The translations under genes and the position numbers were made by a program. The notes beneath the pieces were generated by a model. The model saw nothing but the letters and a program-made list of their open reading frames with translations, had not been told where the DNA came from and searched no databases. Positions 4,628 through 12,899 of a DNA stretch of 20,524 nucleotides are shown here, in pieces. The number at the start of each line of letters is the position of its first letter. Within the stretch, counting starts at the first letter, position 1. The stretch is from a virus. Location of the stretch: the IMG/VR virus record IMGVR_UViG_3300035703_000464, positions 1-20,524 of that record, one strand, 5' to 3'.

Positions 4628-4656
4628 AAAAAACCCTACCAGTGACGATAGGGTTT
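4628..4656 (-). terminator. Rho-independent terminator after the sulfation cassette
   Basis: On the minus strand AAACCCTA and TAGGGTTT form a perfect 8-bp stem around a 10-base loop, followed by a run of T (six in all, partly inside the stem). It lies between the DUF2061 stop at 4674 and the tail-gene start at 4614. It would end or attenuate transcripts leaving the sulfotransferase/APS-kinase/DUF2061 operon. Confidence 0.82.
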
Positions 4657-4673: not shown

Positions 4674-4877
4674 TTATTTTCTGCCCCAGGAAATCTTGTC
4701 CCAGATTCTTTCGTGCCAGTAGTAGACACCAACCTTAAGTACTGTCTCCCAGAATGCAATCAGAGCAGATAACGTTCCTTCGCCAGTAATGGCATAGACA
4801 ACAATAAAAGAAGTTAGTGTCCCAAATATTCTATAACTAAGCGACTTCGTAAACGAACGTGACTTAGTTACTTTCAT
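4674..4877 (-). CDS. DUF2061 family membrane protein, 67 aa
   Basis: Small membrane protein with the hallmarks of DUF2061: a basic N-terminus with KSLSYRIFGTLTSF, a TG turn near residue 31, a second hydrophobic helix, and the closing YYWHERIWDKISWG. Predicted helices are about residues 17-31 and 36-53. The molecular function of DUF2061 is not established. Its ATG at 4877 overlaps the stop of the APS-kinase fusion (ATGA), so the two are translationally coupled, and it is the last gene before a terminator. From memory DUF2061 genes also appear beside sulfate-activation genes in some bacteria; if so, a role in sulfate supply or in placing the sulfation enzymes at the membrane is plausible. A sampled stretch (4801-4860) has 20 G/C in 60, more AT-rich than the kinase gene. 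Confidence 0.85.
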   Translation of the reverse strand: MKVTKSRSFTKSLSYRIFGTLTSFIVVYAITGEGTLSALIAFWETVLKVGVYYWHERIWDKISWGRK

Positions 4878-5623
4878 AGACCCATTTCCTTACGTTTCTG
4901 CGTTGCAGAGATGGAATGTATTTCTGCTCCTAAATCTACTTGCTCAATCTTGTAGCCAACATCTCGACCATAAACTATGTTGGTGATGTTAGGAAACTTT
5001 ACAACAAAAGATGACCGTTCTTCGGCTCGTATCCGCTTAGCAACTTCTTGGTAAGGGAGAGGGTCTTTCTCGCTAGTACCGTGAGTATCCCGAACAGCGA
5101 TAACAACTTGCTCTGTGCGCTCATATGCCTTCTCCAATAGTGCGTGATGACCTTCGTGCCAAGGTTGATAACGACCTAGCAGCAAGGTAGTTGGTTTCTT
5201 CCAGTCGTGTAGACCAAAGACTCTGATGACATCATCTACTTCTTGCTCAACTGTAAGTCCCTCAAGGATTACTAGGTCAGCATTAGTTGGGTTTTCCCAC
5301 AACTTGTTAGTATCTTCAAAGCGTCCCGCTTCGATACGATTAACCCAGATAAGAATGTCAGGCTTGCCAAAGGCTGCACGAGTCTCTTCTGTAGGACAGA
5401 TAAAGTCAACTACAGTAATGTACCCTTGCTTGCTTGTAAGGCGTGCTAGTGCACCCATACGTCGTGCTTGTTCTACTCTAGCCTCTGGTGTAAACCCAAG
5501 GTCAGAGTTCAGGTCAGCACGTACCTCATCTGCATTAAAGTGAATTGCATTGATGCGGTCTGCCAGTGCGGTAGCCAGTGCAGTCTTACCTGCCCCTGGT
5601 AATCCAATAATTTGTATAATCAT
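4874..5623 (-). CDS. APS kinase-like / nucleotidyltransferase fusion, 249 aa
   Basis: Two-domain enzyme. Residues 1-140 are a P-loop kinase like adenylylsulfate kinase (CysC): Walker A GLPGAGKT at 7-14, then NADEVRADLNSDLGF at 30-44, matching the DxVRxxLNxxLGF signature, and a FED...NADL stretch at 102-117 where CysC proteins bind APS. CysC makes PAPS from APS and ATP. Residues 145-249 are a short HIGH-superfamily nucleotidyltransferase: GRYQPWHEGHHALL at 150-163 (HxGH at 156-159) and the closing ISATQKR at 238-244. The order kinase then nucleotidyltransferase mirrors animal PAPS synthetases, but the second half is far shorter than ATP sulfurylase and resembles NadM or cytidylyltransferase folds. 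It overlaps the sulfotransferase stop as TAATG. Making APS with the second domain is inference; a NadR-like role is the main alternative. Confidence 0.86.
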   Translation of the reverse strand: MIIQIIGLPGAGKTALATALADRINAIHFNADEVRADLNSDLGFTPEARVEQARRMGALARLTSKQGYITVVDFICPTEETRAAFGKPDILIWVNRIEAGRFEDTNKLWENPTNADLVILEGLTVEQEVDDVIRVFGLHDWKKPTTLLLGRYQPWHEGHHALLEKAYERTEQVVIAVRDTHGTSEKDPLPYQEVAKRIRAEERSSFVVKFPNITNIVYGRDVGYKIEQVDLGAEIHSISATQKRKEMGL

Positions 5624-6429
5624 TACTTCCTCCAGAACTCTAAGTTTGAGTACTTGTTTAACACATAGTCAGATAGTACATCTTCTGGCTTAGGGGAAGT
5701 CTTTTTTAGGGCAGGTCTTACTTTGTGCAAGTCCTCTGGTAAACCAATCTTGGTGTCATCATCTACTTCTAACTTTTTAATATTCTTAAAGTTATGGTTA
5801 AATGACTCGACACCTATAAACTTATAGATGTTATCCATTACCTGCTGAGGATTCTCAGTTAAATCAGAGTATTCAACAATATGGAAGATATTTTTATTTT
5901 CTGGCTTAGTCACTTCATTGAGTGCTAACAAACCTTGGTCTATCTCACCATAGGAACGCATAAGGTAATCACAACGATTATCATTTTGAGTCAGGTATGA
6001 CTTGTAATTCCAACCATTATTGACTATACCTCTGTCAATCCAATCAGTATTAAGTGTCATAAAAGACGCTAGTATCTCAACTATTGGTCTAACAGTGTAG
6101 ACAATTTTAGGTTCTTTTGTAAAGTATGTCTTGATAAGAGATAAGTTTGCTGGCGTACCCCAGGCTTTTTCTCTATCAAAAATAATAGGCTTATCTATAT
6201 TTGCATAGTGGTTAGTTAAAAGATTTGAGAAGATGGCATCTGAGCCAGACCTGTCTTTATTTCTAATAACATTTTCTTGATTTAAGGAAGATTGATGAAG
6301 CACCCATAAGTACTCACATACAGGACTTAATGCACTACTATAAATATTTGGGTTTTGATTAAGTAGGCTTGATACTACCGTGTTACCAGAACGCGGTAGT
6401 CCTGACAAGTAATGAAATGTTTTATCCAT
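5623..6429 (-). CDS. PAPS-dependent sulfotransferase, 268 aa
   Basis: Transfers sulfate from PAPS to an acceptor hydroxyl or amine. The 5'-phosphosulfate loop LPRSGNT is at residues 11-17. The 3'-phosphate motif is in VRPIVEILAS, with Arg114 and Ser122 eight residues apart as in known sulfotransferases. A YSDLTENPQQVMDNIYKFIG helix near residues 188-207 matches the usual EDL...P..v...i..FlG segment. Length is normal for the family. No signal peptide or membrane helix is seen, so it should act in the cytoplasm. It is first of three coupled genes with the APS-kinase fusion and DUF2061. No clear Shine-Dalgarno precedes its ATG, and composition is unlike the neighbours: 18 G/C in 6181-6240 against 31 in 5041-5100 of the next gene. 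This suggests separate acquisition. The acceptor cannot be read from sequence. Confidence 0.9.
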   Translation of the reverse strand: MDKTFHYLSGLPRSGNTVVSSLLNQNPNIYSSALSPVCEYLWVLHQSSLNQENVIRNKDRSGSDAIFSNLLTNHYANIDKPIIFDREKAWGTPANLSLIKTYFTKEPKIVYTVRPIVEILASFMTLNTDWIDRGIVNNGWNYKSYLTQNDNRCDYLMRSYGEIDQGLLALNEVTKPENKNIFHIVEYSDLTENPQQVMDNIYKFIGVESFNHNFKNIKKLEVDDDTKIGLPEDLHKVRPALKKTSPKPEDVLSDYVLNKYSNLEFWRK

Positions 6430-6466: not shown

Positions 6467-7240
6467 TTAATACCAGATTAGAACTGCACCTGCTCCGCCT
6501 GAGCCTGATGTAGTACTGGTTGATGTACCACCACCACCGCCACCGCCTGAGCCGCCATTTTTGTTGGTTGCAGCAGCAAGCAAGCCACCACCGCCACCGC
6601 CAATTCCGCCAGAAGCGGCAGCACCAGAAAACTTGCCAGCACCACCAGCGCCAGAAGGAGAACCTCCACCGCCTGCGACAAGACCTGCTCCACCCGCACC
6701 GCCAGAGGCAGCACCAGCACCACCGCCAGAACTATAACCAAGTCCACCAGGACCAGCCTGAGTTCTGCTTCCACCATTAGCGCTACTACCTGGTATATTA
6801 TTTGAAGTTCCTGCTGAACCAGCAGCACCTTGAGTAGGACCAGAGGTTGTTCCTCCACCGCCTCCGCCTGCTCCACCTGCAGAACCACGACCACCTCTTA
6901 AACCAGCATATCCACCTGCACTTCCACCTCCACCGCCACCTGCACTAAGTGTTGAAAAGGTTGTTGTTCCACCAGTAGTTGAGCCGCCGCCACCTGCTCC
7001 AATAGTTGCAGCATCGCTTGCTGGCACCCATCCTTCAATAAATCCACCTGCACCGCCACCCCCGCCTTGGTAGTATTGGTTACCACCGCCACCGCCACCT
7101 CCGCCGACAAGTTGGGCAAATACATATTTAATATCTGCTGGGATTCCAATAGAACCTGTAGTAGATGTCACAGTGTGACGTAATGTTATTTTAGTAGGGT
7201 CAAAACCCCCACCTGCTGCTACTAATGAGGATACAGCCAT
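6467..7240 (-). CDS. Gly-rich tail adhesin, second copy, 257 aa
   Basis: N-terminal strand-rich segment (KITLRHTVTSTTG, then YVFAQLVGGGGG), followed by about 200 residues dominated by Gly runs broken by Ser, Ala, Thr, Asn and Gln, and a closing hydrophobic AGAVLIWY. This is the Gly_rich_2-like layout found in phage tail tips and resembles adhesins such as gp38 of T-even-like phages, where Gly-rich stretches pack as polyglycine II helices and the loops between bind the receptor. It is a clear paralogue of the Gly-rich gene at 7913-8779: shared TLR.T.TSTT start, GGGGGA..(V/I)(Q/E)GW(L/V)PA motif, TIGAGG motif and GGAG.VLI.Y end. Its ATG overlaps the stop of the small beta protein (TAATG). Receptor binding is inference. 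Confidence 0.8.
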   Translation of the reverse strand: MAVSSLVAAGGGFDPTKITLRHTVTSTTGSIGIPADIKYVFAQLVGGGGGGGGNQYYQGGGGGAGGFIEGWVPASDAATIGAGGGGSTTGGTTTFSTLSAGGGGGGSAGGYAGLRGGRGSAGGAGGGGGGTTSGPTQGAAGSAGTSNNIPGSSANGGSRTQAGPGGLGYSSGGGAGAASGGAGGAGLVAGGGGSPSGAGGAGKFSGAAASGGIGGGGGGLLAAATNKNGGSGGGGGGGTSTSTTSGSGGAGAVLIWY

Positions 7241-7569
7241 TATGCAATCTCGCTTCCAAATGCTGAGAACGTTAGGTCAGCAGTTGATGCGTAAACCGTA
7301 ACAACATCAGTGTCACCTAACGTAGCGCCAATAGTAATAAATGTGCTGTTGTTTGCAGTAATTGCTGCGTCATATGCAATGTAGTGTGATGTAGCAAGTG
7401 ACGCTCCGTCAGGACGAATAGCCACACGGAATGTTGCATTAGATGCTCCACGATTACATACAGCAATAGTTGAAACTACAGCCTGGGTGCTTGATGGCAC
7501 TGTGTATAGAGTTGTCGCTGTTGTTGCACTAGGCGCTGACTGCCCTAGTACTTTATATGTAGTTGCCAT
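7240..7569 (-). CDS. Small beta-rich tail protein, second copy, 109 aa
   Basis: Strand-rich Thr/Ala/Ser-rich protein without Lys beyond the N-terminus. It shares TTLYTVPSST, the following V..I.V.N...SNATF pattern, and the C-terminal EIA with the 100-residue protein at 8779-9081, so the two are paralogues. Each copy is followed directly by a Gly-rich adhesin gene, here through a TAATG overlap, which suggests that the small protein is an adaptor joining the adhesin to the tail. From memory such small proteins with a LYTVP..T..VV..I.V.N pattern are common among phage tail genes. Exact role unknown. Confidence 0.75.
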   Translation of the reverse strand: MATTYKVLGQSAPSATTATTLYTVPSSTQAVVSTIAVCNRGASNATFRVAIRPDGASLATSHYIAYDAAITANNSTFITIGATLGDTDVVTVYASTADLTFSAFGSEIA

Positions 7570-7572
7570 TGG

Positions 7573-7710
7573 TTATGCTCCCATTGTCATTAGTGCTGTC
7601 GGGGTTGAGTCAGGCAAAGGAATGGCAGCGATAGACGCTGCCACCTCTGCATCTGTTGCCAAGCCTGTTGCAGAACCTGCAAGGTTGGCTAGGTCACGGG
7701 CTTTTGTCAT
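7573..7710 (-). CDS. Tiny tail-associated protein with TKARDLANLA motif, 45 aa
   Basis: ATG at 7710 overlaps the stop of the 63-residue gene (ATGA), and TAA at 7575-7573 lies three bases before the next ATG. The product starts MTKARDLANLAGSATGLATD and ends ALMTMGA. The TKARDLANLA motif is familiar from the ends or joints of phage tail-fibre proteins; here it stands alone as a 45-residue gene. It has no membrane segment. It may be a detached fibre piece left by module shuffling, or a small linker peptide. The tight junctions on both sides support a real gene. Confidence 0.68.
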   Translation of the reverse strand: MTKARDLANLAGSATGLATDAEVAASIAAIPLPDSTPTALMTMGA

Positions 7711-7898
7711 TCAGTCTCTTCTTCCGTGGCTACAACTGGAGCAATAAATGTAGAGCCATCATAGGTTCCACCAATTACTGCTGGGTTTTCATCTGTGTAT
7801 TCAACACAGGTAAGACCAGTTACTTCTTCTGCTACCTCTTTTGAATCTGCAACGATAATATTTGTTACTTGATTTCCTGTAAGCACTGCAAAGTTCAT
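7707..7898 (-). CDS. Small conserved-looking phage protein in the adhesin region, 63 aa
   Basis: Begins MNFAVLTGNQVTNIIVADS, then EVAEEVTGLTCVEYTDENPA, and ends in an acidic tail (VVATEEETE). The start is supported by AGAGGAG 8 bases upstream. From memory, similar 60-80-residue proteins accompany tail-fibre genes in cyanophages and other aquatic phages. No catalytic motif is visible. It lies between the two adhesin modules and may be a fibre assembly helper or a tip component. The stop overlaps the next ATG. Confidence 0.72.
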   Translation of the reverse strand: MNFAVLTGNQVTNIIVADSKEVAEEVTGLTCVEYTDENPAVIGGTYDGSTFIAPVVATEEETE

Positions 7899-7912
7899 TA
7901 TTTTTTCTCCTC

Positions 7913-8779
7913 TTAGTAGTAAATTAATACGCAGCCTGCGCCTCCTGCGCCACCTGCTCCAGCAGTAGAATTATTTGCACCACCACCGCCGCCGCCACCG
8001 CCACCGCCTGAACCTCCAGCACCACCTGCACCACCTGCACCAGAAGTTCCATTAGAACCATTAGAACCATTGGCTAAGATTCCCGCTCCGCCTCCGCCTC
8101 CGCCTGACCTAGGTTGGTTTCCTCCTGCACCTGTTCCGCCAGAGCCGCCTGTGTAAAGTGAATTAGAACCACCTGCCCCTCCAGTTGCTCCATTACCAGA
8201 ACCACCATTTGGTGAAGAACCCCCTCCACCACCGCCGCCTGGTCCATTTGTTCCAGGACCACCAGCGCCACCAGCAAGACCTTGGTAACCATTGCTACCG
8301 CCGCCACCGCCACCGCCACCAGAGTTTGCGACTAATCCTGGTGAACCTGTTTGGTCTGTGCCACCAGTTGCACCATTGGCACCACCAACAGTTAACCCTA
8401 AAAGAGAACTAGTAGAACCTCCAGCGCCAAAGCCACCGCCTCCGCCCATTGCAAATAGTCCACCAACAAATGTTCTACCACCTAAAGAATTAGCGCTTCC
8501 GCCAGCACCGATAGTTACAGATGTAAAAGTAGCAGGTAGCCAACCTTGAACAATTGCTCCTCCACCACCGCCAGTTGGTCCTTGGGCACCACTTGAACCA
8601 GAGCCACTTCCACCACCTTGACCACCACCAACTGCAACTACATATACCTGTGAAACAGGAAATGAAAGACCAGTAGTTGTAGATGTGTAAGTATTGCGAA
8701 GTGTTAGACCAGAAGGTACGCCAACTATTGTTGGTGGGTTAGATGCTGATGAAGGAATAGGAAAAATTGATACACCCAT
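7913..8779 (-). CDS. Gly-rich tail adhesin, first copy, 288 aa
   Basis: An N-terminal strand-rich segment (LTLRNTYTSTTTG, then VYVVAVGGG) precedes a long stretch of Gly runs separated by short Ser/Asn/Thr/Pro loops, ending AGCVLIYY. It is paralogous to the gene at 6467-7240, with matching start, GW(L/V)PA and TIGAGG motifs and C-terminus, while the loops differ. Gly-rich phage adhesins of this type are thought to form a polyglycine-helix core with variable receptor-binding loops. ATG at 8779 overlaps the stop of the upstream small beta protein (TAATG). Gly codons make many CCACCGCC-like repeats on the plus strand, which could favour recombination. Adhesin role is inference. Confidence 0.8.
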   Translation of the reverse strand: MGVSIFPIPSSASNPPTIVGVPSGLTLRNTYTSTTTGLSFPVSQVYVVAVGGGQGGGSGSGSSGAQGPTGGGGGAIVQGWLPATFTSVTIGAGGSANSLGGRTFVGGLFAMGGGGGFGAGGSTSSLLGLTVGGANGATGGTDQTGSPGLVANSGGGGGGGGSNGYQGLAGGAGGPGTNGPGGGGGGGSSPNGGSGNGATGGAGGSNSLYTGGSGGTGAGGNQPRSGGGGGGAGILANGSNGSNGTSGAGGAGGAGGSGGGGGGGGGGANNSTAGAGGAGGAGCVLIYY

Positions 8780-11280: not shown

Positions 11281-12204
11281 CTATCGGCGGGAGAAGTGAA
11301 CTCGTGGTGGGTAATTCTTTTGATGTGACTTTGTTTCCTCTTGCAAACGCTGTGAGTACAAAGCGTAAAGTTGCTTGGTCGCACTCTGTGAAGCACCGTA
11401 TGGGCGCTTGCTGTCTGTCTCGTCAGCCTGTGGGCTAACCTGAGCAGCACGTGCTGGGTCAAGGAATGATAGAAGTCTGTATGCAGTTCCGAGGATTACA
11501 ACATCTCGTGTTGACTCTGGAAGTCCTGTCTGCGTTGCATAATCTTGTGAGTTAGTTGTGAACTCAACTGGGTCAGTTGCATACACAATTCGGACTGAAC
11601 GTCCTGGGATTGGTGCTTGACCTAGTGTGATTGTCTGTGCGTTAGAACCAAATGCTGTGGCATCTGCAGTTGAATCAAAGTCCCACTTGCGAATCGGAAT
11701 CCACTCTTTAGATGGTCCGATTGATTCCCAGGCAACAGTCAAGATAGTCTTGATGTTAAGGTCGTTGAATGCGTATGTTGACTGAGCGGCATTGAAGGTA
11801 AATGATGTGCTCTTGACTGCAAAGATGTTTGCACCCAGTGAGCGGATTGTGTCATTGATTGCACGCTTGACAACATTGCGAGGGAAGGTTGGGGAGATGG
11901 TTACCTTGGAATCTGCGCTATGAGTAGCAGCGGTAGAACCTAGATAACCACGTCCATAGGGAGCAATTGTCGCAGTGTTTGCAATGCGGTCAAATGAATC
12001 GACCCACATCAACTCTTCGTCAATTTCCAAGATTCCCTTACCAACGTTCTCAGTCGAACCCAGAGACAGGATTAGCGGTGAAGCACTTGAAGATGTTGTA
12101 GTAGTAACTGCAGTCCTCAAATAGGTTGCTCGGTCTTGCTGGAATGTATATCCAGACAAGTTCAGGACAACCTCATCAATCATCTGACTCAGGGTGTACG
12201 ACAT
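11281..12204 (-). CDS. Probable head-tail connector or neck protein, 307 aa
   Basis: Starts MSYTLSQMIDEVVLNLSGY and contains a strand-rich central part (ILEIDEELMWVDSFD, YGRGYLGSTAATHS), an FPRNVVKRAINDTIRSLG helix near residue 112, and an Ala/Gln-rich C-terminal helix ending YPPRVHFSRR. The mix of helices at the ends and a beta insertion resembles phage adaptor or neck proteins that join the portal to the tail, and its place between head genes and fibre genes agrees. I do not recognise a specific family with certainty. ATG overlaps the glycosyltransferase stop as TAATG. Confidence 0.6.
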   Translation of the reverse strand: MSYTLSQMIDEVVLNLSGYTFQQDRATYLRTAVTTTTSSSASPLILSLGSTENVGKGILEIDEELMWVDSFDRIANTATIAPYGRGYLGSTAATHSADSKVTISPTFPRNVVKRAINDTIRSLGANIFAVKSTSFTFNAAQSTYAFNDLNIKTILTVAWESIGPSKEWIPIRKWDFDSTADATAFGSNAQTITLGQAPIPGRSVRIVYATDPVEFTTNSQDYATQTGLPESTRDVVILGTAYRLLSFLDPARAAQVSPQADETDSKRPYGASQSATKQLYALYSQRLQEETKSHQKNYPPRVHFSRR

Positions 12205-12884
12205 TATTTCCTCTTATTCCCTACGAACGCGTCGTAGTAGTTAACATCAAAGGAGAACCGCTTCATATGCGGAACTGTTGCTGCAGTGTGAGCAAAGACT
12301 GGAATGTCAGCCTTGTCACATAGAGCGAAGAAGTAGATATCTTCACCCATAAAACTTTTACCGTGTCCCACATCTGAGAAGAGTGGTGCTGTCGGTAGGA
12401 CCTCACGGATGCGGTCAACTACACTGCGGTGCATCAGGACGAATCCCATACCCGCTGCGCCTACCTGTATTAACTTGTCTTTAGGAAGTGGATGGACTCG
12501 CTTGATTCCTACCTCTTCGCCATTGGCTACGAACCAGAACAAAGTTGGCATTGGTTCCATCAATGGTTCTTCAGGATGGTCAGTTGTGAAGTACACACCC
12601 GTAAGGATTGGTCGCTTCTCAACATCTTTGTTATCCCAAAGTAACTTGAAAGTATCTGGGCTAATGACAACATCTGAGTCGACCCATAGGAGCCAGTCTG
12701 CTTTGTTGCCTTCATACCAGTGATTGATTACTCTGTCACGTTGTCTTGCAATTTGATTGCCTTGGCTACGCAGGGTGGTCACGACTTCAACTCCTGAGTG
12801 GAGCATTACATCTGTGACCCCTTGCATAAACTTGCCATCGACCATACCGTTATCGCACCAGGCGATTGCTAACTTGTCGTTCAT
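12204..12884 (-). CDS. GT-A glycosyltransferase, family 2-like, 226 aa
   Basis: Nucleotide-sugar-dependent glycosyltransferase. The metal-binding DxD is in ADWLLWVDSDVVISPD (D69, D71), following a conserved helix with IARQRDRVINHW. PILTGVYF, a GAAGMGFVLMHRSVVDRI segment and GEDIYFFALCDKADI, with an acidic pair in the position of the catalytic base, complete the usual GT-A layout. There are no membrane helices. ATG at 12884 has AAAGGTGG about 8 bases upstream and is preferred over a GTG nine bases earlier. It sits among head and connector genes, unusual for a host-envelope enzyme, so it may modify virion proteins; alternatively it decorates host glycans. The sugar cannot be inferred. Confidence 0.85.
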   Translation of the reverse strand: MNDKLAIAWCDNGMVDGKFMQGVTDVMLHSGVEVVTTLRSQGNQIARQRDRVINHWYEGNKADWLLWVDSDVVISPDTFKLLWDNKDVEKRPILTGVYFTTDHPEEPLMEPMPTLFWFVANGEEVGIKRVHPLPKDKLIQVGAAGMGFVLMHRSVVDRIREVLPTAPLFSDVGHGKSFMGEDIYFFALCDKADIPVFAHTAATVPHMKRFSFDVNYYDAFVGNKRK

Positions 12885-12899
12885 TGTCCCCACCTTTAT

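Follow-up and report, generated by a model that had tools for sequence, protein, structure and literature searches.

The window analysed here, the whole 20.5-kb stretch of DNA, is a virus fragment from IMG/VR. A sequence-only reading had proposed three coupled genes at 4674-6429, and these are confirmed as minus-strand open reading frames at those positions, with overlapping stop and start codons. The locus comprises the following features:

4631..4656, minus strand: terminator-like hairpin with an 11-pair stem and a 4-base loop, followed by a T-rich tail (sequence scan)
4674..4877, minus strand: DUF2061 small membrane protein, 67 aa (Pfam, hydropathy, position 3' of the fusion)
4874..5623, minus strand: kinase-nucleotidyltransferase (NTase) fusion, 249 aa, proposed compact PAPS synthase (Pfam APS_kinase and CTP_transf_like, phrog_10255)
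4874..5203, minus strand: HxGH NTase domain of the fusion, residues 141-249, proposed mini ATP sulfurylase (alignment, AlphaFold/Foldseek)
5213..5623, minus strand: APS-kinase-like domain of the fusion, residues ~1-137 (PDB profile, AlphaFold/Foldseek, motifs)
5623..6429, minus strand: sulfotransferase, 268 aa (Pfam, phrog_27463, motif positions)

The sulfotransferase gene overlaps the fusion gene in TAATG and the fusion gene overlaps the DUF2061 gene in ATGA; a GGAGG ribosome-binding site precedes the fusion gene. The cassette had also been described as ending at a terminator, and a hairpin with its T run is indeed found there, but it is weak by itself, with two terminator-like sites in the window against 1.1 expected in shuffles. 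Promoter-like sites in the window were no more numerous than in shuffles. The initial description of the flanks holds on the upstream side, where genes at 6467-8779 encode two extremely Gly-rich tail-type proteins of the phage-adhesin kind; the neighbour on the other side encodes a 659-aa phage protein (phrog_11667), and the tail role assigned to it is unsupported. Within the structural region lies a glycosyltransferase-like gene (12204-12893; phrog_34859, 3e-76), the product of which might build a glycan for the sulfotransferase to act on. The capsid protein shares up to 47% identity with capsids of Streptomyces phages and 63.5% with that of the unannotated Caudovirales ct2KA10; its likeness to the former makes an actinobacterial host plausible.

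The sulfotransferase exceeds the curated cut-offs of Pfam Sulfotransfer_1 (4.4e-11) and Sulfotransfer_3 (3.9e-10) and matches phrog_27463 (7.8e-89). Its 5'-phosphosulfate loop, LPRSGNT, begins at residue 11; the spacing between Arg114 and Ser122 is eight, as in the PAPS 3'-phosphate motif. The protein thus combines the Pfam match, the 5'-PSB loop and the Arg/Ser 3'-phosphate pair of PAPS-dependent sulfotransferases, as the sequence-only reading had recognised from the same loop and residue pair. Homologues occur in the Synechococcus phages S-SKS1 and S-SRM01 (36% and 30% identity); the records of these two phages yielded no fusion relative. A peptide-pattern search of IMG/VR with the window sulfotransferase gave no relatives; the patterns were too specific, and several relatives were seen beside the fusion. 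A PDB sequence search with this protein returned nothing useful. The role of phage sulfotransferases has been called unclear (PMC10580990; OM43-type phages).

The fusion as a whole matches phrog_10255 (7.2e-65). Residues 2-84 match Pfam APS_kinase (PF01583) at 5e-16, with 59.4 bits against a cut-off of 21.1, and carry the P-loop GLPGAGKT (from residue 7) and the motifs NADEVR (30), DLGF (41), ARRMG (53) and DFICPT (73). A profile of the fusion searched against the PDB matched APS kinases in 24 of 25 cases, the remaining match being an NMNAT aligned to the NTase half. The AlphaFold model of the kinase half (pLDDT 85) found only APS kinases or PAPS synthetases among its top 50 Foldseek matches, with E-values from 1e-9 to 1e-7. 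Neither the PDB profile nor Foldseek matched a non-sulfur kinase family, and the original call of an APS-kinase-like/nucleotidyltransferase fusion is thereby upheld. The window kinase nevertheless stays below the TIGR00455 APS-kinase equivalog cut-off (58.7 vs 138.7 bits), and it lacks the full lid DxKGLYKKARAGEIKxFTG, which is present in the OCS116 protein P0001, and has a short RFEDTNK at residue 101 instead. On account of this score and lid, we file the kinase half as APS-kinase-like and not as a proven CysC.

The C-terminal half matches Pfam CTP_transf_like above the curated cut-off (2e-5, residues 148-198). Its domain of ~109 aa contains GRYQPWHEGH (from residue 150), TSEKDP (183), GRDVGY (219) and ISATQKR (238), and an alignment of 37 sequences shows G10, R11, Q13, H16, G18, H19, P48 and GRxVGY to be invariant. 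The AlphaFold model (pLDDT 89.7) has PPAT and NMN adenylyltransferases as its nearest Foldseek folds, with weak E-values. The domain shares with NMN and pantetheine-phosphate adenylyltransferases the HxGH motif within a GR(Y/F)QP(W/F)HxGH signature, the ISxTxxR motif and the nearest folds; it differs from them in being ~50 residues shorter, in its conserved YGRDVGYK motif and in a genomic context of sulfate instead of NAD or CoA. Scores against NMN adenylyltransferase models remain below cut-off (TIGR01527 22.6 vs 181.2 bits, PRK01153 29.1 vs 127). The Sat family PF01747 did not match the window fusion, and a single split homologue reached 18.3 bits, below the cut-off of 24.3. Judged by such profiles, the NTase is outside the Sat and CysDN sulfurylase families.

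These likenesses would fit a cofactor salvage enzyme of the NadR type, in which the kinase acts on a nucleoside or a similar compound, the NMNAT-like domain adenylylates in NAD or CoA metabolism, and the sulfotransferases are incidental. The profile matches of the NTase are NMN adenylyltransferases (PRK01153 6.7e-7; 2qjt 1.5e-4), its Foldseek list names PPAT, NMNAT and NadR, and one phage has the fusion beside a NADAR gene. However, the kinase half resembles APS kinases and not NadR kinases, and the NTase is also joined to a bona fide APS kinase. On an OCS116 contig (L209), an NTase 50% identical to that of the window stands N-terminal to a kinase part that scores 243 bits with TIGR00455 (cut-off 138.7), the domain order thus being swapped; a gammaproteobacterial contig (L210) encodes the same swapped-order fusion. 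The ties of the NTase to sulfotransferases in many phages, its position next to aprBA in SAR11 and its alternation with CysD likewise speak against a salvage role, which we consider quite unlikely.

Other known fusions join an APS kinase to ATP sulfurylase or CysN. The window protein is comparable to human PAPSS1/2 and to the bacterial Sat-CysC and CysN-CysC fusions in that a kinase with the APS-kinase fold and a proposed APS-making adenylyltransferase share one chain. It differs from them in its size (~249 vs >560 aa), its shortened lid and an NTase of ~109 aa that is NMNAT/PPAT-like and belongs neither to PF01747 nor to CysDN.

The third gene encodes a DUF2061 protein (PF09834, 2.3e-16, 60.4 bits vs a cut-off of 23.1) with hydrophobic stretches at residues ~13-30 and 31-50, and the Pfam match together with the hydropathy supports its designation as a membrane protein. 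Mesorhizobium symbiotic plasmids show the gene order nodC-nodI-permease-sulfotransferase-DUF2061-cysD-cysN, and three Microvirga plasmids have cysD-cysN-DUF2061. Other plasmid DUF2061 genes lie in unrelated contexts, and DUF2061 is therefore a recurrent, non-exclusive partner of sulfate activation. The publications on DUF2061 that were consulted deal with polymyxin B resistance and iron regulation, and no link to sulfate was found in them. The rhizobial system for Nod-factor sulfation (NodH with NodPQ, that is, CysD and CysN-CysC) resembles the phage cassette in uniting a sulfotransferase, DUF2061 and sulfate activation in one operon on the Mesorhizobium plasmids; it is unlike the cassette in that CysD and CysN(C) replace the compact fusion and the acceptor is the Nod factor.

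An IMG/VR search with the fusion gave at least 600 matches, and at least 599 stretches encode relatives. We compared 186 viral fusion loci, which are the matches listed from three independent starts, namely the fusion, DUF2061 and a different sulfotransferase. Among these listed matches, the gene immediately 3' of the fusion encodes DUF2061 in 181 of 186 loci, and a sulfotransferase-like gene is found within 3 kb in 97 of the 186, nearly always upstream and on the same strand. When the listed fusions are clustered at 90% identity, DUF2061 is present in 62 of the 64 resulting groups and a sulfotransferase within 3 kb in 29. The neighbouring sulfotransferases fall into three sequence groups, and Pfam Sulfotransfer_1/2/3 were confirmed among the upstream neighbours; groups A and C exceed the Pfam cut-offs and group B (STB) is weak, so that counts including STB are perhaps too high. 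A search begun from a group C sulfotransferase gave 36 closely related loci, 34 of which carry the fusion. Within 22 long carrier records, a sulfotransferase was detected in 11 (two Pfam models, E 0.001; several below the curated cut-off), and no PAPS reductase was found in any of the 22 as a consumer of PAPS.

The architecture varies beyond the fusion itself. L148-L152 and L158 carry four separate genes in the order sulfotransferase, kinase, NTase, DUF2061, and the phage contigs L154-L157 have NTase and DUF2061 with no kinase recognised. Casjensviridae phages encode a fusion of 40% identity, with no recognised DUF2061 and no sulfotransferase detected. Fusions without a recognised DUF2061 also occur in Stenotrophomonas, Xanthomonas and Clavibacter phages, with NADAR-type or methyltransferase neighbours where inspected. 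Those of a Stenotrophomonas phage (L082) and a Clavibacter phage (L084) are distant, at ~40% identity; in L082 the fusion adjoins NADAR and methyltransferase genes, and both phages have a gene annotated as cysteine dioxygenase ~3-4 kb upstream of it.

The three families thus occur together in many loci other than the window. The stable unit is the fusion with DUF2061, a common phage module, and the sulfotransferase is an exchangeable partner. What stands of the self-contained cassette first proposed is a sulfotransferase beside its own donor supply; the extent of the unit needs amending, with a sulfotransferase neighbour in 97 of the 186 loci listed. Phage genomes do collect cargo genes, and about half of the fusion loci listed have no sulfotransferase within 3 kb, as would be expected if the genes were unrelated cargo assembled by accident in a single phage and did not act together. 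Yet the genes overlap, the DUF2061 pairing recurs in 181 of 186 listed loci, three sulfotransferase groups take the same upstream position and split four-gene versions exist; contradicted already by the co-occurrence counts, chance is barely credible as an explanation.

By sequence, the kinase/NTase family is not phage-specific, and SAR11 bacteria have both as separate genes. The NTase is encoded in 151 of 197 Pelagibacterales genomes and, in the sampled loci, mostly lies beside the same kinase. The SAR11 pair is the counterpart of the phage fusion, the same kinase and NTase being encoded separately; it differs in being cellular, in that the kinase is missing in some, and in that it may run in the sulfite-oxidising direction, from APS to ATP and sulfate. 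Of all the SAR11 genomes with coordinates, 41 have no more than 3 kb between NTase and AprA, in three spacing classes. One class sets the kinase-NTase pair against aprBA in all ten sampled loci. In L220 and L225 (SAR11 genomes G108 and G165), a lone NTase lies directly upstream of a gene for a 271-aa-type protein, aprB and aprA, no kinase gene being found within the stretch examined; here the NTase occupies the place where sat would be. Another SAR11 locus, L211, has a sulfoacetaldehyde acetyltransferase gene nearby.

CysD is absent from all 151 NTase-bearing SAR11 genomes and present in 10 of the 46 without NTase (Fisher 2e-7, a test that ignores phylogeny, on genomes of varying completeness). 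Moreover, 122 SAR11 genomes combine the NTase with Sulfotransfer_1 and have neither CysD nor Sat. No such exclusion exists between the NTase and Sat (PF01747) in SAR11, where seven of ten Sat genomes have the NTase. AprBA is present in most SAR11. For Ca. P. ubique, AprBA is reported as present and cysDNCHIJ and sat as missing, yet cysC and cysQ appear in the table of the same paper (PMC5069961); according to this table, most strains have cysC, cysQ and aprA, and a single strain has cysD (PMC5069961). The NTase thus stands beside aprBA or an APS kinase and alternates with CysD, as a sulfurylase would, in a correlation that ignores phylogeny. Most sampled SAR11 copies away from apr have a context with no obvious sulfur link, of Rieske oxygenase and enoyl-CoA hydratase. 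In this class (L214-L224, L236-L242), kinase and NTase are flanked by a Rieske oxygenase resembling glycine betaine monooxygenase and by enoyl-CoA hydratase with a CoA-binding protein.

Genomic context indicates that the NTase makes or uses APS, because it is fused to a true APS kinase, adjoins aprBA and alternates with CysD. Its adjacency to aprBA, the exclusion of CysD and the published lack of cysD, cysN and sat make it a good candidate for the missing sulfurylase of SAR11. Alternatively, the kinase alone could serve sulfation by making PAPS from host APS, with the NTase using APS otherwise, for recycling, sensing or adenylyl transfer elsewhere. That the NTase falls into no known sulfurylase family by profile, and that the AprBA of most SAR11 can make APS from sulfite, would agree with this division of labour. 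However, the phages L154-L157 keep NTase and DUF2061 with no kinase recognised, and SAR11 have an NTase beside aprBA without a kinase; both argue for an independent APS-linked function, and the CysD exclusion points to replacement of a sulfurylase. We therefore regard a kinase acting alone as unlikely.

A different donor is also conceivable. In Campylobacter methyl-phosphoramidate biosynthesis, a homologue of APS kinase has a CDP compound as its substrate and works alongside a nucleotidyltransferase. Given this precedent outside sulfur metabolism, the phage pair might likewise produce some other 3'-phosphorylated nucleotide. In SAR11, however, the NTase adjoins AprBA and never co-occurs with CysD, and in rhizobia DUF2061 stands beside cysDN; these facts speak against another donor, which we consider very improbable.

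We think it quite probable that the cassette encodes a compact, previously unrecognised PAPS synthase, consisting of a mini-sulfurylase and an APS kinase, which feeds the sulfotransferase and forms a self-contained sulfation module. Read onto the observed gene structure, families, conservation and context, the C-terminal HxGH domain would convert ATP and sulfate into APS, and the N-terminal kinase domain would phosphorylate APS with ATP to PAPS. The sulfotransferase would then transfer the sulfate from PAPS to an acceptor, releasing PAP. This acceptor, made during infection, is probably a surface glycan or protein of the host or virion. Its sulfation might serve the purposes first suggested, namely to block other phages, evade host defence or alter the receptor. 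DUF2061 may be a membrane partner, possibly aiding sulfate entry or tethering the enzymes at the membrane. If the NTase forms or uses APS as an adenylyltransferase, the fusion would cover the whole of PAPS synthesis, and its NTase would be more than an odd appendage to an APS kinase. Such a module would be needed by phages whose hosts cannot activate sulfate, and the Synechococcus phages that have related sulfotransferases, and in which no fusion was found, are consistent with this. The overall interpretation of the sequence-only reading, a sulfotransferase with its donor supply, was therefore largely right; the role of the NTase and the extent of the unit are amended, as is the distribution of the family, which extends beyond phages.

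It is on balance likely, if somewhat less firmly so, that the NTase domain represents a third kind of sulfate-activating enzyme besides Sat and CysDN, namely a minimal NMNAT/PPAT-like ATP sulfurylase. Phages would have spread it widely in the form of a one-chain PAPS synthase, and in SAR11, in which it is near-universal, it would supply the step reported missing among AprBA, APS kinase, sulfotransferases and CysQ. Searches of the literature, which covered a minority of subscription journals, brought up no such enzyme in a phage or in SAR11. If this reading is true, many environmental phages hold a complete route from sulfate to a sulfated product, and sulfation in infection could be tested with a defined set of genes. 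SAR11 bacteria, reported to lack cysDN and sat and to possess AprBA, cysC and cysQ (PMC5069961), would then have an ATP sulfurylase. It would explain their use of sulfotransferases and could close sulfite oxidation by AprBA with recovery of ATP. A sulfurylase of ~110 residues would, furthermore, be a handy small enzyme for PAPS regeneration.

The window cassette lies in the tail region, whereas elsewhere the module occurs in a longer conserved gene string. In ~30 related phage loci (L013, L020-L023, L159-L192), genes for a luciferase-like monooxygenase, Sulfotransfer_2, an Asp/Asn beta-hydroxylase, the fusion, one or two DUF2061 proteins and a tryptophan halogenase (PF04820, 340 bits) lie together, which suggests a multi-enzyme pathway of hydroxylation, sulfation and halogenation that modifies some acceptor.
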